Shown here in pieces: positions 5,598 through 29,854 of a stretch of 34,433 bases of DNA. The notes beneath the pieces are model-generated. The model saw only the letters and a program-made list of their open reading frames with translations. It did not search any database and had not been told where the DNA came from. The stretch comes from Caldifarciminota bacterium (GTDB lineage Bacteria > Hydrothermota > Hydrothermia > B15-G9), in contig WGAI01000042.1 in assembly GCA_015489175.1 (NCBI GenBank), positions 1 through 34,433 of the forward strand, read 5' to 3'. The position numbers and the translations under genes were made by a program. The stretch's first letter is position 1, and every line of letters starts with the position of its first letter.

Positions 5598-5637
5598 TTG
5601 GTTAATAACCGTTAATGGATGTATTCTGCCGTTAATG
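5598..5637 (+). promoter_or_regulatory. Candidate LytTR-type regulator binding site (direct repeats)
   Basis: The 9-mer CCGTTAATG occurs twice, at 5609-5617 and 5629-5637, with exactly 20 bp between starts. In the register of the LytTR-family consensus [TA][AC][CA]GTTN[AG][TG], ACCGTTAAT at 5608-5616 matches 9 of 9 and GCCGTTAAT at 5628-5636 matches 8 of 9, with an 11-bp gap (12-13 bp is usual). A third GTTAAT lies at 5601, one helical turn upstream. The site ends 9 bases before a TTGACA element, the usual place for an activator. The nearest downstream operon encodes a LytTR regulator. The rest of the AT-rich 5371-5597 stretch shows no gene or clear element to me. Confidence 0.7.
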
Positions 5638-5646
5638 TAATTTTCG

Positions 5647-5674
5647 TTGACAGTGGTGCATACGCCATTATTAT
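5647..5674 (+). promoter_or_regulatory. Probable promoter of the sensor/regulator/surface-protein operon
   Basis: A perfect -35 TTGACA (5647-5652), a 16-bp spacer and TATTAT (5669-5674, 5 of 6 to consensus) predict transcription from about 5681. This leaves a leader of about 50 bases before the ATG at 5730. The slightly short spacer and imperfect -10 suit activation from the repeats directly upstream. Confidence 0.6.
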
Positions 5675-5729
5675 CCATAATACTATGATAAACATTGCTA
5701 CTATAGAAATTGCTCACCGGGAGGATAAT

Positions 5730-6755
5730 ATGCATGGAAGGGAATCCAGAAGCAGGGTAAAGATATACTGGAAACCCATAAGGTTTGGGATACTTATGTC
5801 CGTAATACTGACCTTTTTGTGGGCTTTGATTTTTAAAATCATGTCAAACTCATCTATCCTCCTATCAATTACCTTTGGTTTATTGACGGTTGTGTTTTCG
5901 TTCTTATTTACACTATGGATTTCAAAACTTATTCGCACATCCCGTATTGATATGATGGCAATAATTGTTGGAGTTTTTTCTTTGCCGTCGGTTTGGTTGG
6001 CTTATGGAACGTATCTGCTTATCTGTTGGATAAATACAGGCTGTTGGTTCAAAGGAACATCAACAGTTTTCTGGAAGGTAACCGCTATTGGCGGGATTGC
6101 TTCGTTTTTGGGCTCTGTAGGGCTTGGTTCCAATTTTACAAGGATTTACAACGAGTTGAAGAAGAAAAGTGCTAATGTGGAAGCCCAGTTGAGGACTTTG
6201 AAGGACATAATAAATCCACATTATCTTTTCAACATTTTCAGTTCCATACAGGCATACATGTGGCTTGATAAGAACAAAGCGGATAGGATGATAGTTTTGC
6301 TTGCTGATGCTCTTAGATATGTTCTTAAATCGGAAAGAAAAGGTTATGTTCCGATGGCAGAAGAGCTTGAGTATGTTGAGAAGCTTGCCCAGCTCAATAG
6401 CATGCAGGGAGGCAATGAGGATAAGGAAATCGTGATCATAAGGAATGGGGATGAGGATTACCTTATTCCACCGTTTGGCATTTTTGTTTTTGAGAGATTT
6501 ATGTTGAAATTCGATCAATTCACATCGCTCTTTTCGAGCAGACCTGTGTTATTTGAGGGGAGAAGATCGGGAAATTACTATTTCTTGCGTTATGGCTTTA
6601 GCAGCGATAGTGCCGCTGATGATTGGGTCGATATGGCAAATTTCATTGTAGAAACAGGTAGGAATTTCTGGGCAGGTCATGAGATAAAGTATGAAATAGA
6701 TAAAAAGGCGAGGGAGCTTAGATTATGGCTGCCGCTAAGAAGATCAAAGTCTTAA
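5730..6755 (+). CDS. LytS/YehU-type membrane sensor with degenerate ATPase domain
   Basis: The N-terminal half of this 341-residue protein has about four hydrophobic segments (roughly residues 14-125). The C-terminal half resembles the His_kinase/HATPase arrangement of LytS-type sensors. The phosphoacceptor box INPHYLFNIFSSI is intact, with the histidine at about H164, followed by LADALRYVL and a VPMAEELEYVEKL segment typical of the family. The ATP-binding part is not typical. The N-box usually reading ENAIKHG reads ERFMLKF (about 255-261), no DNGxG box is visible, and the glycine-rich lid is missing, although the final LRLWLPL strand is kept. It is therefore probably a pseudokinase or a strongly altered kinase. 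The ATG at 5730 has GGGAGG 5 bases upstream and lies downstream of the promoter. The gene overlaps the regulator gene by 31 bases. Confidence 0.8.
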   Translation: MHGRESRSRVKIYWKPIRFGILMSVILTFLWALIFKIMSNSSILLSITFGLLTVVFSFLFTLWISKLIRTSRIDMMAIIVGVFSLPSVWLAYGTYLLICWINTGCWFKGTSTVFWKVTAIGGIASFLGSVGLGSNFTRIYNELKKKSANVEAQLRTLKDIINPHYLFNIFSSIQAYMWLDKNKADRMIVLLADALRYVLKSERKGYVPMAEELEYVEKLAQLNSMQGGNEDKEIVIIRNGDEDYLIPPFGIFVFERFMLKFDQFTSLFSSRPVLFEGRRSGNYYFLRYGFSSDSAADDWVDMANFIVETGRNFWAGHEIKYEIDKKARELRLWLPLRRSKS

Positions 6756-7498
6756 TCGCAGAGGATGACAGGCCAACTCGTGAGTATCTTGAGAGGCTGC
6801 TCAAGGAGATGGAAGATATTGAAGTGGTGGCCTCTGTATCCAATGGCAAAGAGGCTTATGAGGCTGTCAAAAAATATAATCCAGATCTCCTTGTTCTTGA
6901 CATCGAGATGCCTTTTCTGAACGCATTTGAACTCCTTGAGCGATTGGACTCGCCTCCGCCTGTCGTTTTTGTGACGGCTTACGATGAGTATGCAGTTCGA
7001 GCATTTGAAGTAAATGCAATAGATTATGTTTTAAAGCCTATTCAAAAAGAGCGTTTGAGGATGGCGATCGATAAGGCATTCGAGCGAGTTTCAGATATAG
7101 ACGAATGGAGGTCAGATTTAAGGGATCTAATTGAGAAGTTTCAGCCCAAAAAGATAGTGAAGCTTCCAATAGTTACGCCCACCTCTTTGAAACTCATTCC
7201 GCTCGATGATGTGGTCTGGATAGAGTCGAGTGGTGATTCGAGCATTGCCCACCTGAAAAACGGGGATATGGGGAGGGTGCCCAAAAGGATCGGCGAGGTT
7301 GAGAAGATGTTGCCTTCGTCGAAATTCCTCAGGGTTCATAAGTCGTTTATGGTCAATCTTGTGCACATAGATGAAATTGTGCCGTGGTTTAACGGTGAGT
7401 ATCTTTTAAAGATGTCGGATGGTAGTGAGATAGTTGTGGCGAGAAGACGGGTTAAGGCCCTGAAATCTCGATTTGGACTAACAAAAATGGAGGAGTGA
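6725..7498 (+). CDS. LytTR-family response regulator
   Basis: This 257-residue two-domain regulator has a receiver domain (about 5-120) with the acidic pocket E13-D14-D15, phosphoacceptor D59 (LLVLDIEMP), T84 (VFVTAYDEYA) and K104 (DYVLKPI), all the residues needed for phosphorylation. The C-terminal LytTR DNA-binding domain (about 145-252) shows the family pattern, with VVWIESSGDSS, FLRVHKSFMVNL and LKMSDGSEIVVARRR. It starts inside the sensor gene with AGGGAG 8 bases upstream, so the two are translationally coupled. LytTR proteins bind pairs of 9-bp direct repeats, and such a pair lies upstream of this operon's promoter, pointing to autoregulation. The first surface-protein gene begins 6 bases after the stop. 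Confidence 0.95.
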   Translation: MAAAKKIKVLIAEDDRPTREYLERLLKEMEDIEVVASVSNGKEAYEAVKKYNPDLLVLDIEMPFLNAFELLERLDSPPPVVFVTAYDEYAVRAFEVNAIDYVLKPIQKERLRMAIDKAFERVSDIDEWRSDLRDLIEKFQPKKIVKLPIVTPTSLKLIPLDDVVWIESSGDSSIAHLKNGDMGRVPKRIGEVEKMLPSSKFLRVHKSFMVNLVHIDEIVPWFNGEYLLKMSDGSEIVVARRRVKALKSRFGLTKMEE

Positions 7499-7504
7499 TA
7501 CAGG

Positions 7505-8014: not shown

Positions 8015-8039
8015 ACAAAAACAAGGAGGTTGATGCCTT

Positions 8040-10847
8040 ATGAATAATAAATGGAACAACCTGTTGAAGGTTGCATTGGTTCTGATCGTGTCGGGGGTCA
8101 TGACAGCTGCCACAGCTTTGACACCTGCTGGCACAGTCATAAGGAACCAAGCGTCCGCGAGATATAAAATAGGTGATACGGAATACACCTCGACATCCAA
8201 CGAGGTGATGACAGAAGTAAAAGCTGTTTACAATCTCGATCTCTTGCTCAACGGTCAGGATACGTCCGAAGCTACCAATCCTGTTGTCGTGCAATATGCC
8301 TATGTCGGTAACAATGTCTATATACAGTATGAGATAAGGAGCTACTCCAACACAGCTGACACTGTCGATATAACTGAGCTTGTTAAGGATGGGTCTTCTA
8401 ATATGCCAGACCCAACCGAGATTTCGGTTTACGAAGATGAAAACGGGAATGGCGCAGTTGATCCTGGCGAACAGCTTTTGGGAGTGTGGGATCCGTCTTC
8501 AAACAGCTGGAGCACAGTTTCTCAAAGCTTGAATGGCAACGGTTATCCCGATGTGTATGTGGACATGAATTCGAGCAAGTTCTTTGTAGTGACATACACA
8601 ATCCCGTCTGGAGCTTCTAATGGTCAGAAGTATATCCTCGGTGTGACGGTTCAATCGGGCGGCAACTCCTCCGTTCAGGATCCGGGATCAGAAGGCGGCA
8701 ACAACTACCATGAGGTTATAGTTACCACAGACGCTTCTATATGGGCCAACAAAACCGCTACTCCTCAGCAAGTGGCACAGGGCGATACCATTACATACAC
8801 GATTAGCGGTTCAAATGTCGGTGGACAGGTTACAGATACGGTATCCGTTGGTTACGATAACGATGGAGATGATAACATTGACGCATACTATCAGGGTGTG
8901 ATTCTCAGAGATGGAATTGACACATCGCTTGTCTATTTCGCGGGAGACTTATCGGCGACACCTTCAGGCAATGAAATCTACTTCTATGATGCCAACAATG
9001 ACGGCACATCTGCATGGCACGATACACCACCTAATGATTCCACGCTCATAGATTCTGTGGGTTATGTGTTCCCTAACATAGATCCCGGTCAACAGTTCAC
9101 ATTCACTTTCAAGGTAAAGGTTAGAGATAATGTTGCTGCCGATACATCCATCTCCAATGTCGCTGTCATAAGATATAAACTCCAGTCCGGGACGGATACT
9201 TCGTTCACCACGAATAACGCAGTTGTCACGGTTAACGCTTCTGGAGCTTACATTTATAGTGTTAGGGTGGGGCCTTATGGTAATCCAGAAGCCTCCGGTG
9301 GCGGAGCTACTGGCAATGTGAACAACGATACAGCAGCTGTAGATATAATCGAGGCTGGCGGATACGAGCTGGATACGATTACCGTTAAGAACATAGGTAA
9401 TGTGGCCGATGAGTATGTTCTGAGCGATACTGTTCTGACCAGCGGTGCTGAGAATAAGTTTTCAAGTATCACATTCTTGCACATGGATGCTTCCACTCCT
9501 ATTGCTAACAACAGGATTTCGCTCGATGCAGGTGAGTCCATGGACCTTATTGTGAGGATAGCGGTGAACGATACAGTTGACACTCGGGGTGATGATATCC
9601 TGATCGCTATTAAGGCCACATCTGTTAATTACCCCGACTCTTTCAACTACACACGCATAAGGATCGATAGCATAATTGGATTGAGTGTGGACATAGGTAA
9701 TGCAAATTACACTGCTGGATCTGTTGACAATACGCCTGCCGATTCTGCCAGTAATCCCGGCCGTTGTGTGACATTCCCGCTGGATGTGCTGAACCAGTCC
9801 GGTGTCTCTGATGTGTATGGTCTCTCCTATCATGTACCTGCCGGGTGGACGGTTACATTCTATCCTGATCAAAATGGCGACGGAACGCCTGATACACTTG
9901 TTCCTATAACTCAGGTTGGTCCAGTTAATCCTGGTGAAGAAGGGCATGCCGTGGCTTATGTGTGCATACCTGACAATGAAAGTCCTGGCGCCCAGGATGT
10001 CAATTTCGTTTCGTATTCCACCAGGGATACGACAGTTCGCGACAGCATAACCAACACCGTTACGGTCAACAATGTGTGTCAGATGTCTATAATTCCTGAT
10101 AGGCATTCAACTGGATTCCCCGGCGGCTTTGTCACCTATCAGCACAGGGTTACAAACTTTGGCAACAGCAATGCGAATGTGACAATAAACATAAATTCTC
10201 AGAGAGGCTGGACATATATAGTTCTTGACTCAGATGGCCAGACTGTCATAAGTGGTCCAATTACTCTTACGCCTGGTCAGGATACTGTTATTTATGTGCG
10301 TGCGTTCGTGCCGAGCGACGCTTCACCTGGACAGTCTGATATAGCTACAATAGAGGCTACAACCGGCACATGTGCTGACACAGTGACCGATGTGACAGAT
10401 GTGATAGCAGGTGCACTTCAGCTTACAAAATGGATTATGGACCCCAACCATGACGGAACGGTTGACGATAGTTCATATAGCAGTTACGGCGTGCCTTACA
10501 GCTACAACACGGATTCTGGAACGATTTGGTATCGTGTCCATTACAAGAACATAAGCACGGATACTGTGAAATCTCCTATCATCTATGAGCCTGTGCCCAC
10601 AAATACGATCATACTCGACGGAACGGTTGGTGGAACACCCTCATCGGGTCAGCTCCTCTATAGTTACAGCACAGATGGCGGTAACACATGGACTTCATGG
10701 TCAACTACTCACTCAGGATGGCCTGTTGACCAGATAACGAACATCAGATTTGGCATAGACAGCAACAGCGACAACACTATAACGGATGATGATGTAATCC
10801 TGCCTGGCGGAAACGGATATATAGAATTCAAGGTCAAGATCGAGTAA
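8040..10847 (+). CDS. Large secreted multi-domain DUF11 protein (P2)
   Basis: This 935-residue exported protein has an N-terminal signal peptide (hydrophobic core about residues 9-25). The first mature domain (about 30-230) resembles the start of P3: both carry an NQAxAxY-like opening and a DxNxNGxVDPGE loop at nearly the same offset (Y131 here, Y127 in P3). Next come a DUF11-like domain (about 231-381, KTATPQQVAQGDTITYTISG), further Ig-like domains with NEW3/DUF11 character, and a C-terminal pair (about 680-935) shared with P4, including SQRGWTYIVLDSDG. It ends in YIEFKVKIE. There is no transmembrane anchor or type IX tail. AGGAGG lies 10 bases before the ATG. I see no enzyme motifs; a structural surface or periplasmic protein is the best guess. 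Confidence 0.85.
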   Translation: MNNKWNNLLKVALVLIVSGVMTAATALTPAGTVIRNQASARYKIGDTEYTSTSNEVMTEVKAVYNLDLLLNGQDTSEATNPVVVQYAYVGNNVYIQYEIRSYSNTADTVDITELVKDGSSNMPDPTEISVYEDENGNGAVDPGEQLLGVWDPSSNSWSTVSQSLNGNGYPDVYVDMNSSKFFVVTYTIPSGASNGQKYILGVTVQSGGNSSVQDPGSEGGNNYHEVIVTTDASIWANKTATPQQVAQGDTITYTISGSNVGGQVTDTVSVGYDNDGDDNIDAYYQGVILRDGIDTSLVYFAGDLSATPSGNEIYFYDANNDGTSAWHDTPPNDSTLIDSVGYVFPNIDPGQQFTFTFKVKVRDNVAADTSISNVAVIRYKLQSGTDTSFTTNNAVVTVNASGAYIYSVRVGPYGNPEASGGGATGNVNNDTAAVDIIEAGGYELDTITVKNIGNVADEYVLSDTVLTSGAENKFSSITFLHMDASTPIANNRISLDAGESMDLIVRIAVNDTVDTRGDDILIAIKATSVNYPDSFNYTRIRIDSIIGLSVDIGNANYTAGSVDNTPADSASNPGRCVTFPLDVLNQSGVSDVYGLSYHVPAGWTVTFYPDQNGDGTPDTLVPITQVGPVNPGEEGHAVAYVCIPDNESPGAQDVNFVSYSTRDTTVRDSITNTVTVNNVCQMSIIPDRHSTGFPGGFVTYQHRVTNFGNSNANVTININSQRGWTYIVLDSDGQTVISGPITLTPGQDTVIYVRAFVPSDASPGQSDIATIEATTGTCADTVTDVTDVIAGALQLTKWIMDPNHDGTVDDSSYSSYGVPYSYNTDSGTIWYRVHYKNISTDTVKSPIIYEPVPTNTIILDGTVGGTPSSGQLLYSYSTDGGNTWTSWSTTHSGWPVDQITNIRFGIDSNSDNTITDDDVILPGGNGYIEFKVKIE

Positions 10848-10857
10848 TAAACTCGAT
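10839..10857 (+). other. Hairpin at the stop codon of P2
   Basis: ATCGAGT (10839-10845) pairs with ACTCGAT (10851-10857) around the 5-base loop that contains most of the stop codon. There is no T-run, so it is not a normal terminator. It may stabilise or process the mRNA between P2 and P3. Confidence 0.35.
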
Positions 10858-10879
10858 TAGAGGACTTATCTGGAGGGAG

Positions 10880-13800
10880 ATGTTGAAGGTTACTGAGAAG
10901 ACCCAAAGCGAAAAAAAAGGGGGATTGTGCCTTCTCATCTCCCTCCTTTTCATTTCTGTTGGATTCCTTAACGCCCAGCATGTAAGGATAACTAATCAGG
11001 CAATAGCTGTTTATAATCTCAATGGTGTTCGATACTCAATACCTTCAAATGTTGTAGAAACCACAGTTTTGCCTATCTACAGTTTTGAGATTTTCCCCAA
11101 CGGTGATACCATTAACCCAGCAAGAAGGGTTTTAACACAGGTCGGGGCAACGGGTTATATAGAATACATTCTGGTAAACACGGGCAATGCTACAGATAGT
11201 TTCAGGGTTTATCCAAGTTACATCGCGGGGAATTTCCCACTTGGAAATCTGAGGATTTATGAGGACTTGAACAGAAATGGAAGGGTCGATCCTGGGGAGA
11301 ATGTCCCGATAGACCGACTTGATGATGTTAGGCCGGATAGCATCGTTTATCTTATTCTGGCCTTTGATATACCTCCCAACGCCCCTTTAGGTGATTCTGT
11401 GTTTGTGGATATTATCGGAGTTTCTTTGAGCAATGGCCTTGTTGACAACGATAACTGGTCATTAGTAAAGGTCGTCCTTGGCCCAGTTATCGATGCATGG
11501 AAGACAGTAAACGCTCCCACCACACACCCTGGTGACACTTTGAGATATGAGATCAGATTTGTGAACAACGGGCAACAAAGCGCAGATTCCGTCATTGTGA
11601 TCGATTACATAAATTATGACGGTTATACGCCTTACACTACTTTTGTGCCGAATTCTGATGGTTCTATACCTTATTCGAGGATAGAGTATCTTTGGAGGGG
11701 TGATCTCACATGGCGCGATAGCCTGCCGCCTGAAGCCGAGGATGTGGCTGGGATAAAAGCTGTTTTTTACAACATATCAGTTTCGCAGAGTGCGAGGTTT
11801 TGGTTCTCTGTGGAGGTCGATTCGTCTGTTCCGGAATCTCTCCGAATAGATAATGTGGCATTCATCTTATCCTACGGATCTGAGGGCAGGGCTTCCGATA
11901 CAACAGTTACAAATGTGGCCATATCCGTCCCTGTAATTGCACCTGTGCTTCACATAGGGCCATACGGGAACCCTCGAGCTTTGCCCGGTGGGGAGGGCAG
12001 CGACGACGATGTCCAACATCAAGATAGCGTCGAAACAGGCGTCTGGCTTACCTTCCGCAACACCGTTCTGAACGAAGGGCCTGTCCCGGCTATGATCGAG
12101 TTTTCTCTTGATGCGGCTGAATTAGGCCTTGGCCCGAATTCTATGGTTTACCTCACGGATGCTACCCTTGAAACGCCTCTCTTCGACAGCAACGGCGATG
12201 GCCATCCGGATATGGGGCCACTTCAGCCGGGAGAGGAACGCCACATAGGCGTTAAGATATTGGTTCCAGATTCTCTGTCTGATTCGGCAAGCAACATTGT
12301 TAGAAGATTGGCGATAACTGTATATCCTCGCGGTATGGACACTCTGACGAACTCGACGGTGGACGAATTTATTGTGAGACCTATTACCCCAGCCTACAGC
12401 GTGAATTTGACCAAGTTTGTGGAGCCGGACACAGTTGTGGTCAACGGCACGAGGCTGATGTTCAGGATAAGGTTTGAAAACACGGGCAATTCTACGCTTC
12501 ATGCTTTCAACATCTACGATGGCCTTTCTGAATACTTCAACGATCCGCAGGTGCCTGAGCACCTCGTTGTTGAGGACTTAAACCATATGCACGAACCGAT
12601 TTTGGCTCATGGGGTATATGATTCCTCCTCTCGTTTCGTGCACTTCTACATGGATTCTGTTCCAATTGGTTTCGCTGGTGAGGTCAAGTTCTTCGTGACT
12701 GCCGCGATGCCAGATTCCGCCAATGAGGTCGTGGCTTATAACATCGCCAACAGCATATCGAGCGGCATGCAGCGGCCAGATACATCGAACAGAATCACAC
12801 TTCATATCATTAGGCCCGTGCTTGAAATCAACAAGCGCAGCAAAAACAACCGTGCTGAGATCGGCGATATAGTGCATTATGAGATAACTATCTCGAATAA
12901 AGCTTCTTACGGGACTCTTTACAACCTGACAGTTTACGATACAATGCCAAACGGCTTCCGCGTGATCGAAAACGGTTTACACCTACCCGACGGCGTCAGG
13001 GTTTTGAAAAATAAAGGCAACATCATTGAGTTTGGCCTCGATTCTCTCCCGTGCAGCACATCGGTTGTTATCCGTGTGGATGCTGCTATCGGGCCGGGCG
13101 CAAGGGTTGGGCATGCAGAAAACAGGGCATGGGTTGTCGGACACCTGCCGTCGAGCGGAACGCGCATCACTGACGGCCCGGCAGTCGCATCTGTCGAGGT
13201 ATCTGAAGGTTTCGCAACATCGCGTGGGTTCATCTTCGGAAAGGTCTTCATAGACGAAAACGATAACTCAATTCAAGACGAGGGCGAGCCCGGCGTGGCT
13301 GGCGTCATCGTTAGAATGGATAACGGCCTTTATGCCGTGACGGATTCGGCAGGTCGATATTCGATCTCAGGCGTGTTGCCGGGGCCGCACGGCGTGTGGC
13401 TGGACATGGTTAGCCTCCCGGACGGACTTGTCCCTGTGCCGGTCTCTATAGCCTCAATGGGCGATGGGCGCTCTCAACTGGTAAATCTTCCAAAATCCCT
13501 GCACTACAAGGCTAATTTCAGGCTAATCAGGATTGCAAAACGCATAACCCGTTTTGAGAGCGAGGCTTCACTCGTGAAGTCTGCCCATGTTGTCTCTGAT
13601 AGCACCTTTATCAACATCGTTCTGCCATCCGCTTACTTCAGAACGGGAAAGGCCACATTGATGCCGGACGCACCGATCGAGCAATTCAAAAACATCGCTG
13701 AACTTGTAAAATCCATTCCGGGATGGAAAGTTATAGTCGAAGGACACACCGACCCAAGGCCAATTCACACAAAGGAATTCCCTGACAACTATGCGCTTTC

Positions 13801-17977: not shown

Positions 17978-18003
17978 TAACCATGGAACTCTTTACATGG
18001 TTA
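17978..18003 (+). other. Hairpin just after the stop codon of P3
   Basis: TAACCATG (17978-17985) and CATGGTTA (17996-18003) form a perfect 8-bp stem with a 10-base loop in the 48-base gap between P3 and P4. It lacks a T-run, so transcription can continue. mRNA processing or stabilisation is possible. Confidence 0.4.
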
Positions 18004-18025
18004 GATAGTAGCTGTGAGGTAGATT

Positions 18026-21000
18026 ATGCTTAAAAGGACTTCATTTATTCTTAGCATTTTATCAACATTTTTCATTTTTGGGGTGCCATTATCCCTTGGT
18101 GCTCAGACATCAATAGATACTGGTGACACACTTGAAATCTATTACGAGACCGCTGGGCCTTATAGACTAACTTCAACTGCTGGAACATTCAGGACAAAAT
18201 CTAATGACGATGACGCTTCAGCCATACAGGATACCTCAACGGCCCAACTCACCATACCAGCGGGTGCTTTTATCAAGAAAGCGTTTCTTCTCTGGGCGGC
18301 TTCCAATAACACTGTGGATGATCAGGTCACCTTAAATGGCCAAAATATTACAGCTGATCGCACACATCTTGCTTCTTTTACATTTGGTTCTGAAACTTAC
18401 ACATATTATGGGGCAATATCTGACATTACAGACATGGTCAGGTATTATGGTACAGGCACATATACTTTAACAGATATGGACATTGACAATGGTTCTCCAT
18501 GGAACGGTGTTCAGGGGGTTCTTGGTGGATGGGCTATTGTTGTTATATATAGCACGGCTCTCAATGATACAATAAGAAAAATTGTTTTGTGGGAAGGTTT
18601 CAGAATTCAGCGATTTACCAATCGGGACTACACGCTCACAGGGTTCTGGGAAGCAAACCCACCTCAGGGAAAACTTTTAAACATAATATGGGAGGGTGAT
18701 CCCACGCTTGGAGGAAGCGATGAGTACCTTAAATTTAACGGTGATAAAGTGGCCGATACTTCCTATGATTCATACTCTTCTGCGATAGACGATACTACTT
18801 ATGGCGTCGATGTGGATACATTCGATGTCTCATCGTATTTGAATCCAGGAGACTCAACCGCAACAATGACCGTCAGTGTTGGCCAGGATATGGTGATCGT
18901 CCAAATGGTGGGAATGTATGACATAAACCCTGTTACAATAAGTGGTTATGTTCTGGAAGATGTCAACGGAGACGGCGATATGTCAGATGCACAACCTGTT
19001 GAAGGTGCACTTGTGCGCCTGTTTGATTCTACCGGAACATTGATCAAAGATACCCTTACTGATGAGATCGGATTTTATTACTTCGAGAATACAAAGGATG
19101 GGACATATTATTTGACGGCTGATTCCCGAACGGTAACACCACACGCTGGTTTTAACAGCGGATACAGTATCGGCGATGTTTGGGCCGAACAGACTTATGT
19201 GAATGCCCCCACGAACAGTTCATCCGAATCACACGGATATTGCGATTCGGATGCCGATCCTTCTACCGCTCCAAGCGAAATAAACGGATCAAGCGTTTGC
19301 TTTGGGGGGGCTTATGGCAATAGGTCAGACAGTGCGGCAGCTCTATCCACGGCCGAACACCTCATAAAGGTTGTAACCAGCGGTTATTACACATCTACGC
19401 CTAATAATTTTGGCTTCAGTTTCAATGTAGTTACGAACACAAACGACTCAGATGACGATCCTGACAGTAGCAGGACATGTCAGGGATGTTTGAGACAATT
19501 CATTAAAAACGCAAACGCAATCAGTGGTGCAAATGCCATGCGATTTGTGCCAGCTGTCCCTACCAACGAATCAGGTTCAAGTGGTTCATGGTGGCATGTC
19601 ACAGCGGGGTCAGCTTTGCCCAAGATTTTGGACGATAACACCACAATAGATGGCACTGCTTACAGCTACTCCGACGGCACGACAGTTGTTGACTCAAATA
19701 CAGGACAAATTGGCACAGGTGGCACCGTCGGCGTAGGCGAGGATGGCATACCCGGGAGCGGAGATGAGCCCACATTGCCATACTTCGACCGGCTCGAACT
19801 GGAAGTAAGCGCCCCATCGAGATACTATATTTTCAGAGTTGGAAATGGAACTTTGCACCCATCTGATGTCACCATAAGGAGGGTTTCTCTATACAAGGTC
19901 GGGAGAAACGGCATAAAGATAGACGGAGGTTGCAATAATTTCCTTGTTGAAGAAAATATTATCGGAGTAAGGGCAGATGGTTCCAATGTATCAGATGCGG
20001 ATCGCATTAAATGGCAGGGGATTAAAGTGACGGATGCATCATTACCCACACAGGGAGGTACAATAAGAAAAAATTACATAGGGTATTGCGGCAGATACAA
20101 TGTTTCGGTTGGTTTAAGTTCCACAAGTGGCAATGAGCCGATAAAAACATTGATCACACAGAACGAGATTTTCGACGGTGGCAAAGGTTCATCCTACGAT
20201 TACCCTGATGACATATCAATTTATGCTGATAGTGTTACCATAGAGGGGAACCTTATAACCACAGCTTACATGGGAAACGGAACCGACCCCACCACGGCAG
20301 GCAAAGGCGTGGAGATAAGATACGGGGCTCATAACATAGTTGTGCGTAACAATACCATAGGTTATACACATTCGGCAGGTGTTTATTTCGATGATAATAG
20401 CAGTAACGGGGTGGTTGAATATAACCTTTTTGAGAGGTGCGGCAAGAGTTATCCATCTGGTGGAGTCGTGGTTAGCGATAAGAATGGCAATGTCAAAGGC
20501 ATAATGATATCCAAAAATTCGATTTCCCAAAGTTATGGACTTGGGATCGACCTTGTGAGCGACGGAAGTGCACATGACGGGGTTACGCCAAATGATGGCG
20601 TATTTTCATCTGACAGCGTGAACAGTGGGATGGATTACCCAATATTGCGACATATAACTCTGTCAAATGCAAGTGACACTGTATATCTTCAAGGATATGT
20701 TGGCTCGGCCCCCAATCAGTCAACTTTTGCCAATGCCACCGTCGAATTTTTCAAGGTTGACAACGATGGAGATAACAACGGGGAGATCGTGTCCGGAGAT
20801 GGCCAATCGGTGCCACATGGTGAGGGAAGATATTACATAGGTTCCTGCACGACCGATGCAAACGGCAATTTCGACTGTGCACTTCCGATACCCTCTCAGA
20901 TTTCAATAAGTTTCGGTGATTCAATAACTGCAACTGCCACAAGCCCGGATAGCAACACCTCGGAATTCGGGCCCAATGCCCCTGTTATGGTTAAGGTTAC

Positions 21001-24000
21001 TGGGAAAGTCTTTGAAGATGTCGATGCCGAAGGTGAGGCGTTTTCGCCGTCCGATGGAGACAGCGGGAGGGCAAATGTCCTTGTTAGGCTGTATCGCGAT
21101 GCCAACAATAATGGGGCGTTGGATAACAGCGATGTTTTTGTCGATAGTGCGAGAACGGATGCCGACGGAAACTATGAGCTTCACGCGGATCTGCCCAATA
21201 CACGGTTCTTTGTGGTGGTTAACTCAAAGGACATTCAGCCCGAAAACGGCTACAATTCAGGATATGGGCCTGATACCGTTTGGGCTGAACAAACTTACGA
21301 AAAGGAATATATAAACGGATCATATTCCGAGCACACCGAGTATGGCGGTGAGGATCCGGAGGCATCCGATAACTTCTCTCTGGCCTCAACAGCTGTTGCG
21401 GATAACCACTACGAACATGTTGCCGAAGTGGATGTAGAGACCAATTCAGTTGGAGACATAGATTTTGGTTTCAGCTTCGATGTGATCGTAAACACGCTCG
21501 ATACAGATCAGGATGCTTCAAGCGATCGGTTTGCACAGGGAACTTTGCGTCAGTTCTTCTTGAACTCTAACGGTAAAGTCGGAAAGCAGACCTCGCGGTT
21601 CGTAATGATGGTCCCCATGAACGAAACTAACTGGTGGCGTATAGACCTGAACTCTCAGATAAGCGTAACGGATACGGTGGACTTCGACGGCACTGTGTAT
21701 GATACAAATGGCAATGTGAGGGATGAAAATACGGGTTACATAGGATACGACTACAGCACAATGCAGCTTGTGAACTCGTCAAGTAGTATGACGGTTGGAT
21801 TGGGTGCTGATGGCATCGAAAACACAGGTGATGAACCATCTATTTCGCCCATACCAAAACCCGAGATCGAGATATACGGCGATGGACTTCAAACGGCTAT
21901 CGATATCGCCGGTGGAGCCACAGCTTCATCATTTAAGAACTTCTCTATATTCGGCGCGACGGGAGATGACGCCTCAGGCAAAGAGGGCGCAAACCTGTTT
22001 TGCCACGCTGACAGTGTGGAATTCTATCACATATTTGTCGGAGCTCGTGCCGATGGCAGCGATCCCAAAGATTCAGGCCTCAACAGGCCAGGGAACGGCC
22101 TTATGACAGAAGGAAGCGTAAACACCGTCAACAATATCCTCGCTGCATACAACGGACTTACAGGTGTTGAATTTTTGGGAAGAAACACAAATGTGGATTC
22201 TGGATTGGTCATCCATTCAATAATTTACAAAAACGGGCTTCAAGGAGCTGCCAAAGATGGAGTTGGCGGCGAGTATGGCACTGTGGTGAAACTTGCATTA
22301 GTCGAAAACATAATTTCTTCGAACTCCGGGTTTGGATTTGAAACTTACAATTCTCAAGGAAGAAAACATCTCATAAACAATACCATAGAGAACAACGGCA
22401 TTGGAGATGAGGGCGGCACTATCGCTCAGGCCGGTGGCATGCGTCTTATAAGTGACAGCACCCTTGTGGAACTCAACATAATCAGAAAAAACGCAGGTGT
22501 TGGAATATTAATCAGGACATCATCTCAAAATAACAGGATCACTAAGAACTCTTTTTATGACAACCAGAACAGCAACGGACAAACTGATAATGGACTTGCG
22601 ATAGATCTCTCGACCACTGGTGGTTACGGAGATGGAGTGACAGCAAACGACGGTTCCACAGGAAGTGGGCCTGACAATTGGATGGATTACCCTGTGTTCC
22701 GTCGCGCTGTGCTAAACGGCAACAACCTTCACATAGAAGGATATGTAGGAACATCATCGAGTTACATATCGGGCACACATACGATTGAGGTCTATAAAGC
22801 CGACAATGACGGAAATCAGGATGGTGAGATTGAGCAGAGCGATGGCAAATCCGTGCCTCACGGTGAGGGTAGGTGGTATATAGGCTCATGCAACACCGCT
22901 TCTGACGGCAGTTTCAACTGTGATTTGACTGTCCCCTCAAGTATCTCCCTTAACGAGGGCGACTCTATAACGGCCATAGCTATCGACGCGAACGACAACA
23001 CATCAGAGTTCGGCCCCAACTTCCTTATCCCGTATGCCATAACGGGTCGAATTTTTGAAGATATGGATGCCATGGGGGAAGCGTTCGACGCAGGCGACGG
23101 CGATGAGGGCAAGCCCGGCGTTCATGTCAGGCTTTACAGGGACGCCAATGGTAACGACACACTCGACTCACCGGATGTATTTGTGTATGACACCACTACC
23201 GACGCAAACGGATACTACAAACTCTATGTGGATGCCGCAATAGCAAGGTTCTTTGTCGTTGCCAATTCCAAAGATATAGAGCCCAAAAACGGTTATAACT
23301 CAGACTATGGCCCCGACACGGTGTGGGCTGAGCAGACATTTGAGCGCGAATACATAAGCGGGTCCTATTCCGAACACGCAGAATATGGCGGTGAGGATCC
23401 CACTGTGTCCGACAGCTTTTCACTGACATCCACATCGGTTGCAGATAATAGATATGAACATGTTGCTGCCGTGGATGTCAATAACGCTTCTGTGGAGAAC
23501 ATTGACTTAGGTTTCAGTTTCAATGTGGTTGTGAACACGCTTGATACGGATCAGGACGCCGCGAGCGACCGGTTCGCTCAAGGGTCATTCCGCCAGTTTA
23601 TTTTAAACGCCAATGGGATAGCTGGCGGCAACCACATGCGGTTTGTGCCGATGGTTAGCCCCAACAGCGGTAGCTGGTGGACTGTTACGCTGAACGATGC
23701 CCTGAACCCTGTGGAGGACTCGCGCACGGTGATCGATGGAACCGCCTATAACCCGGATGGCAGCGTTCGTGATGAGAACAACGGCACCGTTGGGGGAGGC
23801 GTTTATGTCGGGCTTGGCGACGACCTGATCCCATCGAGCGGCGATGAGCATTACATTCAACCTTTTGATAAGCCGGAATTTGAGATTAACCTCAATAAAA
23901 AGAGCGAATACGGCATTCAGATAAATTCGAGTTCACTAAACGATACTATAAAACGGATAGCTGTTTACAACGATTCTTCCACCAACTTTGGAGCCGAAGC

Positions 24001-27000
24001 CGCAATTTTGGTTGATGGAGGGCAGGGTCATGTGATAGAGGATTGCTTCATAGGGCCGAGGGCCGATGGTAGCGATCCCGGCGAAAGCGAGCGCAATGGT
24101 AGATACGGCATCCGAGCAGACATCTCCGAGATAGAGATAAGACATAACTATCTCGCTTATAACGGCTACGGCGTGTTACTTTACGGTGCAGCCGGGGATA
24201 CCGCACACAGCTATGTCCACGACAACGAGGTGACCAGCAACGGCATCACTGGTAATTCTGCTGATGGCGACGGAATAGCTGTCTGGGACCTTGGTGGTGT
24301 TTTTATTGAGCACAACTACAGTCATGGAAACGGCACCAGCAGCTGTGGAGCTGACGGTGGCGCTGGAATTGAATTCTATGGCGTGAGTGCCGCCGCGGAC
24401 ACGATTATCGACAATACCCTGTCCGATAACTTCTGTCACGGCATAAGGATAGCTGATAGTTCACACGATAACATAGTTATAAAGAACCTCATAACGGCCA
24501 ATAAGGGGCCCGGCGTTTTCGTTGGAATAGAGGGCAACCCCGGTGTAACCAACAGGATTACCAGGAACAGTTTCAGCAACAACGATGGCCTTGCCATCGA
24601 TCTTTGTAACACGGCCTGGCAGAATGGCGACGGCGTTACTCCTAACAACGGGCAGATCATTCAGGACAGCACGGACGAAGACATGGATTATCCTGTGATT
24701 ACGGAAGCTGTGTTATCAAACGATACACTGCATGTTGAAGGGTATGTCGGCTCGGCGGCCGGTCAATCCACCTTTGAGAACGATACGGTCGAAATTTACA
24801 AGGCCAACAATGATGGCAACAACAACGGCGAGATAGTGGCAGGCGATGGCCTCTCAGTCCCACACGGAGAGGGTCAGTATTACATCGGCTCGTGTGTCAC
24901 GGGTAGCGATGGCACCTTCAGTTGCGACCTTGTAATCCCATCTGGTGTATCGGTATCGGTTGGAGATTCAGTCACGGGCATAGCCATTGATGGCAACGGA
25001 AATACATCGGAATTCGGCGCAAACAACTATGTCTCATTGTTGATAACAGGTAAGATATTCGAAGATATTGGAGGAGAGGGGGATGCTTTTAACGCTTCGG
25101 ACGGGGATGAGGGAAAATCTAATGTCCTCGTCAGGCTCTACTACGATGCAAACGATAATGACACGCTCGATGACCCGGACATATTTATTGACAGTGCGAG
25201 GACAAATGCAAATGGCGACTATGCTTTACATGCATATTACACGAATAAAACATTTTTCGTTGTAGCCAACTCAAAAGATATTATCCCCAAAAGCGGATAC
25301 AATTCGGGTTATGGCCCTGATACCATTTGGGCTGAGCAGACTTTCGAGAGGGAATACATAAGCGGCAGCTACTCCGCACATCCTGAATACGGCGGTGAGG
25401 ATCCCACTGTGTCCGATAGCTTTTCACTGACATCCACATCGGTTGCTGATAACAGATACGAACATGTTGCGCGCGTGGATCTCGGGACTGAATCCCTCTC
25501 GGACATAGATTTAGGATTTAATTTCAATGTTGTTGTGAACACAATCGATGCTGATCAGGATGCTGGTAGCGATCGTTTCGCTCAGGGCTCATTCCGCCAG
25601 TTCCTGTTGAATGCCAATGGAATAGTCGGAAGAAATGAGATGCGGTTTGTGCCGATGGTGTCCACTAACGCAAGTGGAGGTGGAGGAAATTGGTGGAGTA
25701 TAACGATATCGAGCACTTTACCAGCTGTTTCCGATACATCAACAGTGATCGATGGAACTGCCTACAACGAGGATGGAACTGTAAGAGATGATAACCCCGG
25801 CACGCTCGGCACGGGTGGAACGGTGGGGACGGGTCCTGATGGGATACCGAATACCGGAGATGAAGAAACTCTGCCCCTGTTTGACAGGCCAGAATTAGAA
25901 TTGATAGGAGGTAACTCATATCGTCTTACACTTGCTGGTAAGTATTCAGAGGTTAAAAACATAGCCTTTTACACGAGTGCGATCTATATGAATGCCGATT
26001 CCACTTTTGCAGAGGATAACCTTGTGGGCATGCGGCCTGATGGTTCAATACCAGCAGCTACAACTTCGTGGTTTGGGATAGAGATCAGTGGGGACAGGAG
26101 TTATGTGCATGTCAGACACAACTATTTAAAGATTGACAACAGCGGCATAAGGAAACAGGGGGGCGGAGTTACATACGGGTGTGTGGTTGAATATAACGAA
26201 ATCGATAATCCTGGCTCACAGAGCAGCACATTTGATGGACTCCTTGTAATTTCACTAAATTCAGCCGAGTTCCACAACGATACGCTCAGATACAATCTGG
26301 TCAAGAACCAGCGTGGCGGAGGAGTTGAGCTCGGATGGGTAAACGGCAAGCTAATCGACTTATACATCGAAGAAAACAGCTTTGTTCACAACGGTTATTA
26401 TGGCAGTTCCCCTTCATCAGAGAGCATGGCCATTGTGGCAAGAAAACTTGGTTCAGGCTCACACATCATCATAAGGCGTAACATCTTTACTCAGAATGCG
26501 TGGTCTGCGGTCGCTATCCAATCATCAGCTCAAAATGTTGAGGTTAGCCAGAACAGTTTTTACGACAATGGCGGTATTTCTATCGACTTTGACGCAGACG
26601 ATAGCGATCCGAATTCCAATAGTGCAGGTGACGGTGTTACGCCAAACGACGGAACCACAGGCAGCGGCGCAAACAACGGCATGGATTATCCCGTTTTCGT
26701 GTCGGCGGTGCTTAGCTCAGGTGTGCTCCATGTGACCGGCTTCGTTGGCTCGGACTCCAACCAGACTGCGTTTGCTAACGCCAGGATAGAGGTTTACAAA
26801 GCTGACGATGATGGCAATAACAACGGTGAGATAATTGCGGGCGACGGCAAATCTGTGCCTCACGGCGAAGGCCATTGGTATATCGGGACATGTTCGGCAG
26901 ATGCAAACGGCAACTTTGATTGTGACATAACAGTTCCGTCGAGTATTTCGCTATCGCCAGGTGATTCCATAACCGCCACAGCTACGGATGCCAATGGTAA

Positions 27001-28504
27001 CACATCTGAGTTTGGTGCTAACTATCCCGTCAGAAGCACTGTGATGATAAGGGGATATGTTTTCGAGGATGCCAATCACAACACGGTAATGGACGCCTCT
27101 GAAAGCGGCATCTCGGGCGTCAGAGTTGAGTTGTGGAGCTGGGATGGATCAAACTGGACACAGGTGAGGGATACGGTTACAAATTCAACCGGATATTACA
27201 GCTTTTCGCCTTCCGACACAGGGACTTACAGGGTGATAGAGGATTACAGCGACAACGCAGGCTCTGATCCCGACAACGGCTCAGATCCATCGGGTTATAT
27301 CTCCACCACACCGAATGTCATGGATGTGCACTGGGAGGCTCTTGTGGAGAAATGGGTCAATTTCGGCGATTATCACGGCTCGAAGATAACGGGTAAGGTT
27401 TTCTACGATGCGCAGTGCGGTGTCCAAAGTTCGGACAACAACGACGGCGAGCTGGATTCCGGCGAACCGCCAATAGCGGGGGTTACAGTCAAAGCTGAAA
27501 CCGGCAGCGGAACGCTGATCGATGAGGCCACAACCGACAACGACGGCAGCTATGTGTTGTGGATACAATACGATGTCTCTACCCCGTTTTACCTGATCGA
27601 GGACAACCTCGTGCATTATATTTCCACGGGCGATCACGAAGGTCAGGCCACTTATGTCGCCCATGCCAGCGATGCTGATACCGTCGAATTCTCATCGTTC
27701 TCTTCAGGAACAACCTATTCCGATTACAATTTTGGCGATGTGAAAGAGAACCTCTTCGAACCCGACAACAGCGGGAGTGGCATGCCCGGCTCCCCTGTGA
27801 CTTACAGCCACATATTTATCCCTGGCACGGACAGCAGGATAGACTTTTCTCTCACATCACAACGGGGTTGGACATGGGTGGTCATCCACGATATCGACGG
27901 CGATGGAGAGGTTGACCCTTCTGATACAGTTATAACGACACACCAATTTGTCGCATTACCATGCGATACAATTCACATCATAGTTCGCGGTTTTGTGCCG
28001 TCCAGTGAGCAGATGGGGGTTACAGAAGTTACTCAGTTATCGGCCATTTCAAGTTTTAGTAACAACACATCGCTTGTGGATTCGCTTGAGGTTGTGGATC
28101 TTACTACGATCTCAGGCCCGCTAAAGCTCACGAAGAGCGTTGACAAAAGCTCAGCAGCACCAGGCGAAGAACTAACTTACACGGTAACATTCAAGAACAA
28201 TGGCACCATGGCAATTGACTCCATAACCCTTTCAGATCCGATCGACAGGAATGTAGAATTCGTGCACGACGCTTTCGGTAGCGATCAGGATGTCGAATTC
28301 CATTATCCAGATGGCACGGTCATCTACCTGAAAGCTGAGAGCGGGAGCGATAGCAACAGCGACGGGGCGTGGCTGATGGAGATCGGCGTTTCGATCTTTC
28401 TGAGGATCGAGTTTGTGAATCTTGACGGGTCTTCACCGGGTCCGATAGAGCACTTACAGCCCGGTGAGAGTGGCTATATCGTATATAAGGTGCAGGTGAA
28501 GTAG
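18026..28504 (+). CDS. Giant secreted modular beta-helix protein (P4)
   Basis: This 3492-residue exported protein has a signal peptide (about residues 1-27, ending LGAQ). Residues 30-300 form a DUF3344-like beta domain. Four modules follow at 305, 991, 1672 and 2340, each about 670-686 residues. Each has an SdrD-B-like domain with acidic DANxNDTLD loops, a CSLREA-like entry (NTxDxDQDA...GSFRQFILNANG), a short right-handed beta-helix, and a closing domain ending in TATDxNGNTSEFG. Two more SdrD-B-like domains start near 3008 and 3121. The last about 250 residues (3242-3492) match the P2 C-terminus and end in YIVYKVQVK. There is no lipobox, LPxTG or type IX tail. Module architecture suits a long adhesin or surface fibre; the binding target is unknown. 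A GAGG ribosome binding site precedes the ATG. Confidence 0.85.
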   Translation: MLKRTSFILSILSTFFIFGVPLSLGAQTSIDTGDTLEIYYETAGPYRLTSTAGTFRTKSNDDDASAIQDTSTAQLTIPAGAFIKKAFLLWAASNNTVDDQVTLNGQNITADRTHLASFTFGSETYTYYGAISDITDMVRYYGTGTYTLTDMDIDNGSPWNGVQGVLGGWAIVVIYSTALNDTIRKIVLWEGFRIQRFTNRDYTLTGFWEANPPQGKLLNIIWEGDPTLGGSDEYLKFNGDKVADTSYDSYSSAIDDTTYGVDVDTFDVSSYLNPGDSTATMTVSVGQDMVIVQMVGMYDINPVTISGYVLEDVNGDGDMSDAQPVEGALVRLFDSTGTLIKDTLTDEIGFYYFENTKDGTYYLTADSRTVTPHAGFNSGYSIGDVWAEQTYVNAPTNSSSESHGYCDSDADPSTAPSEINGSSVCFGGAYGNRSDSAAALSTAEHLIKVVTSGYYTSTPNNFGFSFNVVTNTNDSDDDPDSSRTCQGCLRQFIKNANAISGANAMRFVPAVPTNESGSSGSWWHVTAGSALPKILDDNTTIDGTAYSYSDGTTVVDSNTGQIGTGGTVGVGEDGIPGSGDEPTLPYFDRLELEVSAPSRYYIFRVGNGTLHPSDVTIRRVSLYKVGRNGIKIDGGCNNFLVEENIIGVRADGSNVSDADRIKWQGIKVTDASLPTQGGTIRKNYIGYCGRYNVSVGLSSTSGNEPIKTLITQNEIFDGGKGSSYDYPDDISIYADSVTIEGNLITTAYMGNGTDPTTAGKGVEIRYGAHNIVVRNNTIGYTHSAGVYFDDNSSNGVVEYNLFERCGKSYPSGGVVVSDKNGNVKGIMISKNSISQSYGLGIDLVSDGSAHDGVTPNDGVFSSDSVNSGMDYPILRHITLSNASDTVYLQGYVGSAPNQSTFANATVEFFKVDNDGDNNGEIVSGDGQSVPHGEGRYYIGSCTTDANGNFDCALPIPSQISISFGDSITATATSPDSNTSEFGPNAPVMVKVTGKVFEDVDAEGEAFSPSDGDSGRANVLVRLYRDANNNGALDNSDVFVDSARTDADGNYELHADLPNTRFFVVVNSKDIQPENGYNSGYGPDTVWAEQTYEKEYINGSYSEHTEYGGEDPEASDNFSLASTAVADNHYEHVAEVDVETNSVGDIDFGFSFDVIVNTLDTDQDASSDRFAQGTLRQFFLNSNGKVGKQTSRFVMMVPMNETNWWRIDLNSQISVTDTVDFDGTVYDTNGNVRDENTGYIGYDYSTMQLVNSSSSMTVGLGADGIENTGDEPSISPIPKPEIEIYGDGLQTAIDIAGGATASSFKNFSIFGATGDDASGKEGANLFCHADSVEFYHIFVGARADGSDPKDSGLNRPGNGLMTEGSVNTVNNILAAYNGLTGVEFLGRNTNVDSGLVIHSIIYKNGLQGAAKDGVGGEYGTVVKLALVENIISSNSGFGFETYNSQGRKHLINNTIENNGIGDEGGTIAQAGGMRLISDSTLVELNIIRKNAGVGILIRTSSQNNRITKNSFYDNQNSNGQTDNGLAIDLSTTGGYGDGVTANDGSTGSGPDNWMDYPVFRRAVLNGNNLHIEGYVGTSSSYISGTHTIEVYKADNDGNQDGEIEQSDGKSVPHGEGRWYIGSCNTASDGSFNCDLTVPSSISLNEGDSITAIAIDANDNTSEFGPNFLIPYAITGRIFEDMDAMGEAFDAGDGDEGKPGVHVRLYRDANGNDTLDSPDVFVYDTTTDANGYYKLYVDAAIARFFVVANSKDIEPKNGYNSDYGPDTVWAEQTFEREYISGSYSEHAEYGGEDPTVSDSFSLTSTSVADNRYEHVAAVDVNNASVENIDLGFSFNVVVNTLDTDQDAASDRFAQGSFRQFILNANGIAGGNHMRFVPMVSPNSGSWWTVTLNDALNPVEDSRTVIDGTAYNPDGSVRDENNGTVGGGVYVGLGDDLIPSSGDEHYIQPFDKPEFEINLNKKSEYGIQINSSSLNDTIKRIAVYNDSSTNFGAEAAILVDGGQGHVIEDCFIGPRADGSDPGESERNGRYGIRADISEIEIRHNYLAYNGYGVLLYGAAGDTAHSYVHDNEVTSNGITGNSADGDGIAVWDLGGVFIEHNYSHGNGTSSCGADGGAGIEFYGVSAAADTIIDNTLSDNFCHGIRIADSSHDNIVIKNLITANKGPGVFVGIEGNPGVTNRITRNSFSNNDGLAIDLCNTAWQNGDGVTPNNGQIIQDSTDEDMDYPVITEAVLSNDTLHVEGYVGSAAGQSTFENDTVEIYKANNDGNNNGEIVAGDGLSVPHGEGQYYIGSCVTGSDGTFSCDLVIPSGVSVSVGDSVTGIAIDGNGNTSEFGANNYVSLLITGKIFEDIGGEGDAFNASDGDEGKSNVLVRLYYDANDNDTLDDPDIFIDSARTNANGDYALHAYYTNKTFFVVANSKDIIPKSGYNSGYGPDTIWAEQTFEREYISGSYSAHPEYGGEDPTVSDSFSLTSTSVADNRYEHVARVDLGTESLSDIDLGFNFNVVVNTIDADQDAGSDRFAQGSFRQFLLNANGIVGRNEMRFVPMVSTNASGGGGNWWSITISSTLPAVSDTSTVIDGTAYNEDGTVRDDNPGTLGTGGTVGTGPDGIPNTGDEETLPLFDRPELELIGGNSYRLTLAGKYSEVKNIAFYTSAIYMNADSTFAEDNLVGMRPDGSIPAATTSWFGIEISGDRSYVHVRHNYLKIDNSGIRKQGGGVTYGCVVEYNEIDNPGSQSSTFDGLLVISLNSAEFHNDTLRYNLVKNQRGGGVELGWVNGKLIDLYIEENSFVHNGYYGSSPSSESMAIVARKLGSGSHIIIRRNIFTQNAWSAVAIQSSAQNVEVSQNSFYDNGGISIDFDADDSDPNSNSAGDGVTPNDGTTGSGANNGMDYPVFVSAVLSSGVLHVTGFVGSDSNQTAFANARIEVYKADDDGNNNGEIIAGDGKSVPHGEGHWYIGTCSADANGNFDCDITVPSSISLSPGDSITATATDANGNTSEFGANYPVRSTVMIRGYVFEDANHNTVMDASESGISGVRVELWSWDGSNWTQVRDTVTNSTGYYSFSPSDTGTYRVIEDYSDNAGSDPDNGSDPSGYISTTPNVMDVHWEALVEKWVNFGDYHGSKITGKVFYDAQCGVQSSDNNDGELDSGEPPIAGVTVKAETGSGTLIDEATTDNDGSYVLWIQYDVSTPFYLIEDNLVHYISTGDHEGQATYVAHASDADTVEFSSFSSGTTYSDYNFGDVKENLFEPDNSGSGMPGSPVTYSHIFIPGTDSRIDFSLTSQRGWTWVVIHDIDGDGEVDPSDTVITTHQFVALPCDTIHIIVRGFVPSSEQMGVTEVTQLSAISSFSNNTSLVDSLEVVDLTTISGPLKLTKSVDKSSAAPGEELTYTVTFKNNGTMAIDSITLSDPIDRNVEFVHDAFGSDQDVEFHYPDGTVIYLKAESGSDSNSDGAWLMEIGVSIFLRIEFVNLDGSSPGPIEHLQPGESGYIVYKVQVK
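23381..23466 (+). repeat. Near-identical segment, module 3 copy
   Basis: These 86 bases match 25385-25470 in module 4 with five differences, all at third codon positions and all synonymous. They encode the stretch from EYGGEDPTVSD to NRYEHV. The two copies are markedly closer to each other than to module 2. Confidence 0.9.
25385..25470 (+). repeat. Near-identical segment, module 4 copy
   Basis: This is the partner of 23381-23466, with 81 of 86 bases identical and the encoded protein unchanged. It points to a recent duplication or gene conversion between modules 3 and 4, and could be a recombination or assembly hot spot. Confidence 0.9.
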
Positions 28505-28849: not shown

Positions 28850-28876
28850 TTAGGCCGAGATAAATAGGAGGTGAAA

Positions 28877-29149: not shown

Positions 29150-29160
29150 GGAGGTGGGTG

Positions 29161-29760: not shown

Positions 29761-29781
29761 GTAGGTTAAAATTTGAACATG

Positions 29782-29831: not shown

Positions 29832-29854
29832 GCATAAAAGGAGGTGTTAATTTC

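Follow-up and report, generated by a model that had tools for sequence, protein, structure and literature searches.

A six-gene locus for giant surface proteins in a WOR-3 bacterium, and its four-gene core in other phyla

The locus and its proteins

The subject of this analysis is a group of six genes, termed P1 to P6, in a stretch of DNA of 34,433 nucleotides (the window) that constitutes contig WGAI01000042.1 (C42) of a 2.06 Mb metagenome-assembled genome (MAG) that is 96% complete. The genome belongs to the candidate phylum WOR-3, for which the present NCBI name is Caldifarciminota. The six open reading frames (ORFs) all have the same (+) orientation and are separated by −31, 6, 25, 32 and 48 bp, and a sequence resembling a ribosome binding site precedes each start. 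A first-pass annotation of the window had described six co-oriented genes with gaps of no more than 48 bases, and all the ORFs were confirmed where it had placed them. The ORF originally listed for P1 (5619–6755, +) required correction of its start. Position 5619 falls between two LytTR repeats inside the promoter region, and the real start is the ATG at 5730, preceded by GGGAGG. The genes are:

5730–6755, +: P1, membrane LytS-like pseudokinase of 341 aa, histidine box kept and ATP-binding motifs lost (PF06580 only)
6725–7498, +: P2, regulator of 257 aa with a response-regulator receiver and a LytTR DNA-binding domain, the only LytTR protein of the genome
7505–8014, +: P3, small secreted protein of 169 aa with a single DUF11-like domain (Pfam DUF11-like, weak)
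8040–10847, +: P4, secreted linker protein of 935 aa of DUF11/NEW3 type, with an N-terminal TPAGTxIxNxAxAxY motif (Pfam NEW3/DUF11-like, weak)
10880–17977, +: P5, 2365-aa protein with DUF11, SdrD_B, two OmpA domains and a putative barrel
18026–28504, +: P6, giant surface fibre of 3492 aa (Pfam Beta_helix, SdrD_B, CarboxypepD_reg and DUF11)

P3 to P6 have Sec-type signal peptides, as judged by eye from the translations. Within this genome TIGR01451 DUF11 repeats, LytTR and the LytS-type His_kinase are found at the P1–P6 locus only, and because these families are confined to it the locus can be regarded as a self-contained module.

The nearest named relative of the window genome is an independent congeneric WOR-3 MAG (JALVZN01, hereafter G001), which was the sole match found in a scan of genome contigs and is 87% identical to the window across the P5 barrel region. 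Its genes run in the order P1 to P5 on one contig and P5–P6 on a second, both contigs ending within P5. The N-terminal part of P5 (P5N, below) is the last gene segment seen in G002, where P3-P4-P5N extends up to the end of the contig. A whole-protein P3 is present in the WOR-3 genomes G000, G001, G002 and G037.

Judged by sequence, P4 and P6 each have a C-terminal domain related to P3:

10422–10844, +: P3-like C-terminal domain of P4, ending ...IEFKVKIE; the best match to the P3 profile within P4, its left border approximate
28121–28501, +: DUF11/P3-like C-terminal domain of P6, ending ...IVYKVQVK; the last 132 aa are 98% identical to G001

A profile made from 13 P3 proteins finds its best match in the C-terminal domain of 17 of 18 P4 proteins, and in most P6 proteins the C-terminal domain ranks first or second among the matches. 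P3, P4 and P6 also end flush on a beta-strand with the pattern hydrophobic-x-hydrophobic-x-[VI]-polar; this was found in 34 of 40 such proteins, compared with 2 of the 318 remaining ORFs in those loci. The shared terminal domain is not the tail that directs proteins to the type IX secretion system (T9SS; TIGR04183/PF18962, Por_Secre_tail). None of P1 to P6 has such a match, despite 79 matches genome-wide, so that the earlier observation of no type IX component in the locus holds. P3 has no sequence relative in the PDB.

P5 has a composite structure, the parts of which are:

10880–13579, +: P5N, the DUF11 and SdrD_B part, which has its own gene in Thermus, Deinococcus and Cyanobacteria
13592–13951, +: first OmpA-type peptidoglycan-binding domain
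14363–14659, +: second OmpA-type peptidoglycan-binding domain (OmpA E 4.2e-29 for the whole protein)
15656–17977, +: P5C, putative C-terminal outer-membrane beta-barrel region, barrel character being seen in relatives only
16127–16369, +: conserved insert in P5C, SE.V.V..RD...L.R..DYE[IL]D..TG.L.L..P, kept across phyla

P5C matches no Pfam family and has no sequence relative in the PDB, and the insert likewise belongs to no Pfam or PDB family. A suspected likeness of its DYExDxxTG motif to the T9SS protein SprA was unsupported by profile searches of Pfam or the PDB. The relatives of P5C exhibit significant beta-strand alternation (z of 2.9–5.5 in six of eight), and some have a terminal aromatic residue. 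The assignment as a barrel is good for the family; for the window protein a barrel is predicted from the C-termini and beta-alternation of the relatives. In WOR-3, Acinetobacter and Pacificitalea, P5N and P5C are joined in a single protein, whereas Thermus, Deinococcus and Cyanobacteria encode them in two neighbouring genes; OmpA lies within P5 in WOR-3 and in the next gene in Acinetobacter. These fusions suggest that the parts are physical partners.

P6 is built as a long modular stalk with a tip domain:

18104–18925, +: N-terminal tip domain, whose place is taken in G001 by an unrelated domain (16–26% identity over aa 1–300)
18926–26950, +: four beta-helix modules of ~655 aa (18926–20908, 20951–22948, 22991–24955 and 24995–26950)

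There are four modules in the window and five in G001. The last 540 aa of the two proteins are 94–98% identical, and one inner module has diverged. The tip domains differ further in other bacteria, with DUF3344 in Thermus thermophilus and DUF6923 in Deinococcus QL22. That the N-terminus varies and the C-terminus stays constant would fit a fibre attached by its C-terminal end. In G001, P6 (locus L011, 3376–16995) has an unrelated N-terminus of several hundred residues, with DUF11 near aa 537, and its start is preceded by ~400 bp compared with 48 in the window; the 5′ end seems to have been swapped as a block.

The P3–P6 core in other phyla

Evidence from beyond the WOR-3 phylum was drawn from plasmid sequences. 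Relatives were located by tblastn of plasmids with the barrel, P3, P4 and Thermus P3 as queries, the regions were annotated and their proteins classified using phmmer. Matches to the barrel and to P3 coincide at the same plasmid places in different phyla. The order P3-P4-P5N-P5C-P6 is found in Thermus brockianus, T. thermophilus HB8, Deinococcus QL22 and Deinococcus ficus. D. aquaticus and D. radiodurans have P4-P5N-P5C, P6 being present or absent, and D. gobiensis has P4-barrel-P6. Synechococcus NIES-970 and Kovacikia have P4-P3-P5N-P5C followed by a surface-protein gene, and Pacificitalea has P3-P4-P5. Variant, partly fragmented forms occur in Acinetobacter haemolyticus and Novosphingobium. 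In Eleftheria and Vibrio (L032 2203–14436 and L033 467–14406) there are two genes, encoding a giant DUF11/SdrD protein and a barrel protein, and this may be the minimal unit of the cassette. Sinorhizobium has a lone barrel and a lone P4, in different strains. No P6-like gene was identified in Pacificitalea, Novosphingobium or D. radiodurans.

P3 homologues adjoin P4 or P5 in Deinococcota, Cyanobacteria and Alphaproteobacteria, and P4 has a whole-length homologue in Thermus (phmmer E 2.5e-78). P4 adjoins P3 in 12 of the 13 plasmid records that contain P3. The exception is T. parvatiensis (L072 12917–15617), where P3 stands alone with a transposase gene ~1 kb downstream, that is, a broken cassette. 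In the window, P3, P4, P5 (elsewhere P5N plus P5C) and a surface protein lie together on one strand. The conserved unit is the four-gene core P3–P6, present in at least four phyla, with Alpha- and Gammaproteobacteria having variant forms. Scattered orthologues would have told against the first-pass annotation; the neighbourhood is instead conserved across phyla, and this classification of neighbourhoods rejects chance juxtaposition of the genes. Its proposed check was the co-occurrence of the barrel, P4 and a LytTR gene. Barrel and P4 occur together within the P3–P6 core across phyla, and a LytTR gene beside them is seen in this WOR-3 genus only.

In a tree of P4 sequences the WOR-3 genus occupies its own long branch, the copy from G037 lies with Thermus, and the Deinococcota appear in two places. 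This is consistent with horizontal spread of the cassette. G037 is a WOR-3 MAG of another family, and its contig C60 (L053) has the start of a P3-P4-P5N order with the P4 that groups with Thermus. This copy may be a recent transfer or a contaminant contig, the contamination of G037 being 7%.

The cassette is named nowhere in Pfam, NCBIfam or PDB sequences, and a search of PHROGs gave no match. No description was found in the openly licensed papers searched, where absence is not proof; within these sources the locus is not a described system, as had been supposed. A complete five-gene cassette is carried by plasmid pTT27 of T. thermophilus HB8 (L034 8363–22719), where it is apparently unstudied. 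The gene before it, which carries the annotation of a 3′-5′ exonuclease, is probably TTHB178, and the cassette would then be approximately TTHB179–183 (numbers deduced from that position). The HB8 homologues of P3, P5C and P6 are WP_081481500, WP_011229122 and WP_011229121, respectively. On plasmid p4 of A. haemolyticus (L029 7840–21347) there is a variant operon in which several short DUF11/NEW3 genes and the barrel gene are accompanied by a gene for OmpA alone and one for another DUF11 protein; the plasmid also has arsenic resistance genes.

The regulator pair and the operon promoter

Upstream of P1 there is a candidate operator and promoter:

5608–5636, +: predicted LytTR operator, direct repeats ACCGTTAAT (5608–5616) and GCCGTTAAT (5628–5636) with 11 bp between
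5647–5674, +: predicted promoter TTGACA-16-TATTAT, 10 bp 3′ of the operator, with 11 of 12 consensus matches

The complete arrangement ahead of the P1 start at 5730 is ACCGTTAAT-11-GCCGTTAAT-10-TTGACA-16-TATTAT. The pair of repeats occurs at a single site in the 2.06 Mb genome and in none of 100 shuffles of the window, and a longer form of the pattern stays unique even when three mismatches are allowed. In G001 the first repeat is identical, the second is partly kept (GCCGTT), the surrounding DNA has otherwise diverged, and the promoter is TTGACA-16-TATCAT, so that the −35 element is identical to that of the window. Note that the consensus matches alone are not significant, since two were found where 2.5 were expected and they are no rarer in shuffled sequences. 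The weight of the promoter claim is therefore borne by the repeat, its spacing, its uniqueness and its conservation.

In published promoters of LytTR Regulatory Systems (LRS) the repeats are 11–13 bp apart, with a strong bias to lying 10 bp upstream of the −35 element, and these promoters work by positive feedback (PMC6193735). Sites for AgrA are centred near −60 (PMC4227749); the operator in the window is centred at about −59 relative to a predicted transcription start near 5681. As predicted from sequence, the promoter geometry is that of the self-activating LRS, and the promoter looks built for switching on by the regulator of the locus itself. The promoter architecture thus lends support to the term autoregulated that had been applied to the locus.

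P1 matches the LytS-type His_kinase family of Pfam (PF06580) but not HATPase_c. Its PHYLFN histidine box is retained, the N-box has changed from VENA to FERF, and the glycine motifs are gone. The N-box and glycine motifs are kept in the intact LytS proteins of WOR-3, although these themselves match HATPase_c weakly. Comparison with G001 gives an omega of 0.063 overall, and 0.064 with 90.5% identity for the ATPase-like part. Because the ATP motifs have been lost and yet the protein is under strong constraint, P1 is a conserved pseudokinase and not a decaying gene, bearing out its earlier description as a pseudo-sensor. P2 has a complete set of receiver motifs (EDD, LDIEMP, VTAYD and LKPI; Response_reg E 2.3e-24). 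It resembles BtsR and LytR (165 and 130 bits in NCBIfam), below the cut-offs of both families.

LytTR proteins of any kind were found in 5 of 147 genomes of the WOR-3 phylum. The two WOR-3 genomes with the whole cassette have exactly one each, and it is located in the cassette. A LytS-like/LytTR pair beside the cassette is seen in this WOR-3 genus only, and is a lineage-specific addition to the P3–P6 core. Other WOR-3 LytTR operons (in G047 and G046; loci L050 and L051) contain intact LytS kinases and ABC transporter genes.

The pair works like an LRS in the predicted sense that a membrane protein and a LytTR regulator share one operon, with 9-bp direct repeats 11 bp apart and 10 bp upstream of the −35 element predicting positive autoregulation (Zou et al. 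2018, PMC6193735). It is nevertheless no member of the LRS by two defining features. P2 has a receiver, which the LRS regulator lacks, and P1 precedes P2, whereas the regulator gene is upstream in LRS, although some LRS-like operons do have the membrane gene first (PMC6193735). The membrane component of an LRS is an inhibitor free of kinase domains, such as a DUF3021 or DUF2154 protein; P1 has the form of a degenerate histidine kinase that keeps its His_kinase domain without HATPase_c, and it may act as an inhibitor. The similarity to two-component systems of the LytS/LytR type (BtsSR, LytSR) lies in the likeness of P2 to BtsR and LytR and in the PF06580 histidine box of P1; the pair departs from them in the missing HATPase_c and in the sub-threshold scores of P2.

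The regulator might instead be a two-component system of the usual kind, with P2 phosphorylated by a different kinase and P1 serving as a phosphatase or phospho-carrier. The complete receiver motifs of P2 and the retained PHYLFN box would both be explained in this way. However, P1 without HATPase_c is the sole LytS-type protein in the genome, and the promoter geometry is that of a positive-feedback LRS. We regard this alternative as a serious one, with a chance that falls somewhat short of even. The most economical view of P1–P2 would be an intermediate between two-component systems and LRS.

A proposed surface assembly

We think it slightly more likely than not that P1–P6 form a cassette dedicated to display on the outer surface and controlled by an LRS-like switch, and the regulated outer-surface assembly proposed by the first-pass annotation is still the best reading of the locus. 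P3 to P6 would be exported by Sec. P5 would insert into the outer membrane, tied to peptidoglycan through its two OmpA domains, and the P6 fibre would be seated on its putative barrel and would probably pass through it. P6 would go to the surface tip first, through or beside P5, so that the variable N-terminal tip faces outward and the conserved C-terminal DUF11-like domain stays at the base. P4 would be a linker and P3 an adaptor, both situated at the base of P6 and both having the same kind of terminal domain as P6; they would probably dock by their free C-terminal strands, either with one another or with the DUF11 region of P5. Expression would be driven from a single operon promoter, with P2 binding the paired LytTR sites and the membrane pseudokinase P1 either restraining P2 or relaying a signal to it. 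A change of signal at P1 would release P2 to bind the two sites, setting up positive feedback on the whole operon.

A more ambitious version, which we offer tentatively and hold to be rather doubtful, is that P3–P6 are a hitherto undescribed outer-membrane secretion-and-anchoring system in at least four phyla, the large P5 barrel both exporting and holding giant surface proteins by their shared C-terminal domain with P3 as a dedicated adaptor, to which the WOR-3 genus has added a phosphorylation-independent LRS-like switch evolved from a two-component system.

Several observations weigh against the display cassette as we have drawn it. The beta-alternation of P5C in the window is weak (z of 1.6), and AlphaFold models of P5C and P3 have low confidence (pLDDT 26 from two sequences and 42 from one, respectively). 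The assignment of P6 in some species depends on weak matches and position. P3-like domains occur inside some P6 proteins, so that specificity for the C-terminus is strong for P4 and partial for P6, and the control for the terminal strand was provided by ordinary ORFs of the same loci, as distinct from unlinked DUF11 proteins. The intact receiver of P2 makes a phosphorelay possible.

P5 might act purely as a tether, in a passive envelope connector or S-layer-like scaffold where P3, P4 and P6 are structural proteins of the surface or periplasm and are exported by another route. Its two OmpA domains are suited to such a role, and structural surface proteins often contain DUF11 and Ig-like domains. 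There is also a precedent in SlpA of Deinococcus, a connector of outer membrane and cell wall that, like P5, has a large C-terminal outer-membrane barrel and a wall-binding part (PMC9388160); three predicted 38-stranded barrels have been reported in D. radiodurans (PMC9388160). SlpA comprises an SLH domain and a coiled coil, however, whereas P5 has two OmpA domains and DUF11/SdrD_B, and we found no sequence match between them and no SLH domain in P5. A scaffold leaves unexplained P3 as a conserved small protein, the terminal domain common to P3, P4 and P6 and the lack in P6 of the T9SS tail used elsewhere in this genome, and we consider it unlikely.

P6 resembles fibrillar adhesins in its very long modular stalk, variable number of modules and swapped tip. 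It differs in that its envelope is Gram-negative and in being accompanied by genes for a putative barrel and a linker, and it contains no recognised adhesive domain. The pairing of a putative large barrel with surface proteins that share a C-terminal domain or terminal strand is reminiscent of both type IX and chaperone-usher systems. In a pathway of the latter kind P3 would be a periplasmic chaperone, P5C the usher, and P4 and P6 subunits assembled by strand exchange. The adjacency of a small secreted beta-rich protein to the putative large barrel, and the terminal beta-strands of P3, P4 and P6, are what would be expected, but no usher or PapD-like (pili-chaperone) Pfam match was found in the window proteins or the relatives tested, and P3 is a single short domain that lacks a PDB relative. 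This makes such a pathway improbable. Still more improbable, to a degree that we give it very little credence, is export of P4 and P6 by the type IX system of the genome through an unrecognised signal, with P5 unrelated to export. The abundance of T9SS tails in the genome speaks for it, but P3–P6 have none, and the same C-terminal domain is present in Thermus, Cyanobacteria and Acinetobacter, none of which is known to have a T9SS. P1–P6 have no match to POTRA or two-partner secretion families, in agreement with the earlier statement that a POTRA-type TpsB is absent, and P5 gave no Pfam match to a classical autotransporter; its putative barrel is C-terminal, with the OmpA domains between the barrel and the N-terminal part.

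The genes downstream of the locus (28871–32455) are unremarkable: a coiled-coil ORF, LysM, PhoH, YbeY and CNNM/CorC. A T9SS C-terminal tail, one of the 79 matches in the genome, lies at the very start of the window (14–232), outside P1–P6, and the gene on that flank in G001 encodes a gingipain-like peptidase of the C25 family that likewise has a T9SS tail.

The cassette is present in bacteria that are tractable in the laboratory, including the model organism T. thermophilus HB8 (on pTT27) and, in part, D. radiodurans. The P1–P2 pair would be one of the rare forms that stand between two-component systems, which depend on phosphorylation, and LytTR systems, which depend on an inhibitor, combining a conserved pseudokinase with a predicted self-activating promoter that apparently serves one operon. 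If it is true that the putative barrel exports the fibre, bacteria with an outer membrane would have an additional route by which to build giant surface structures.

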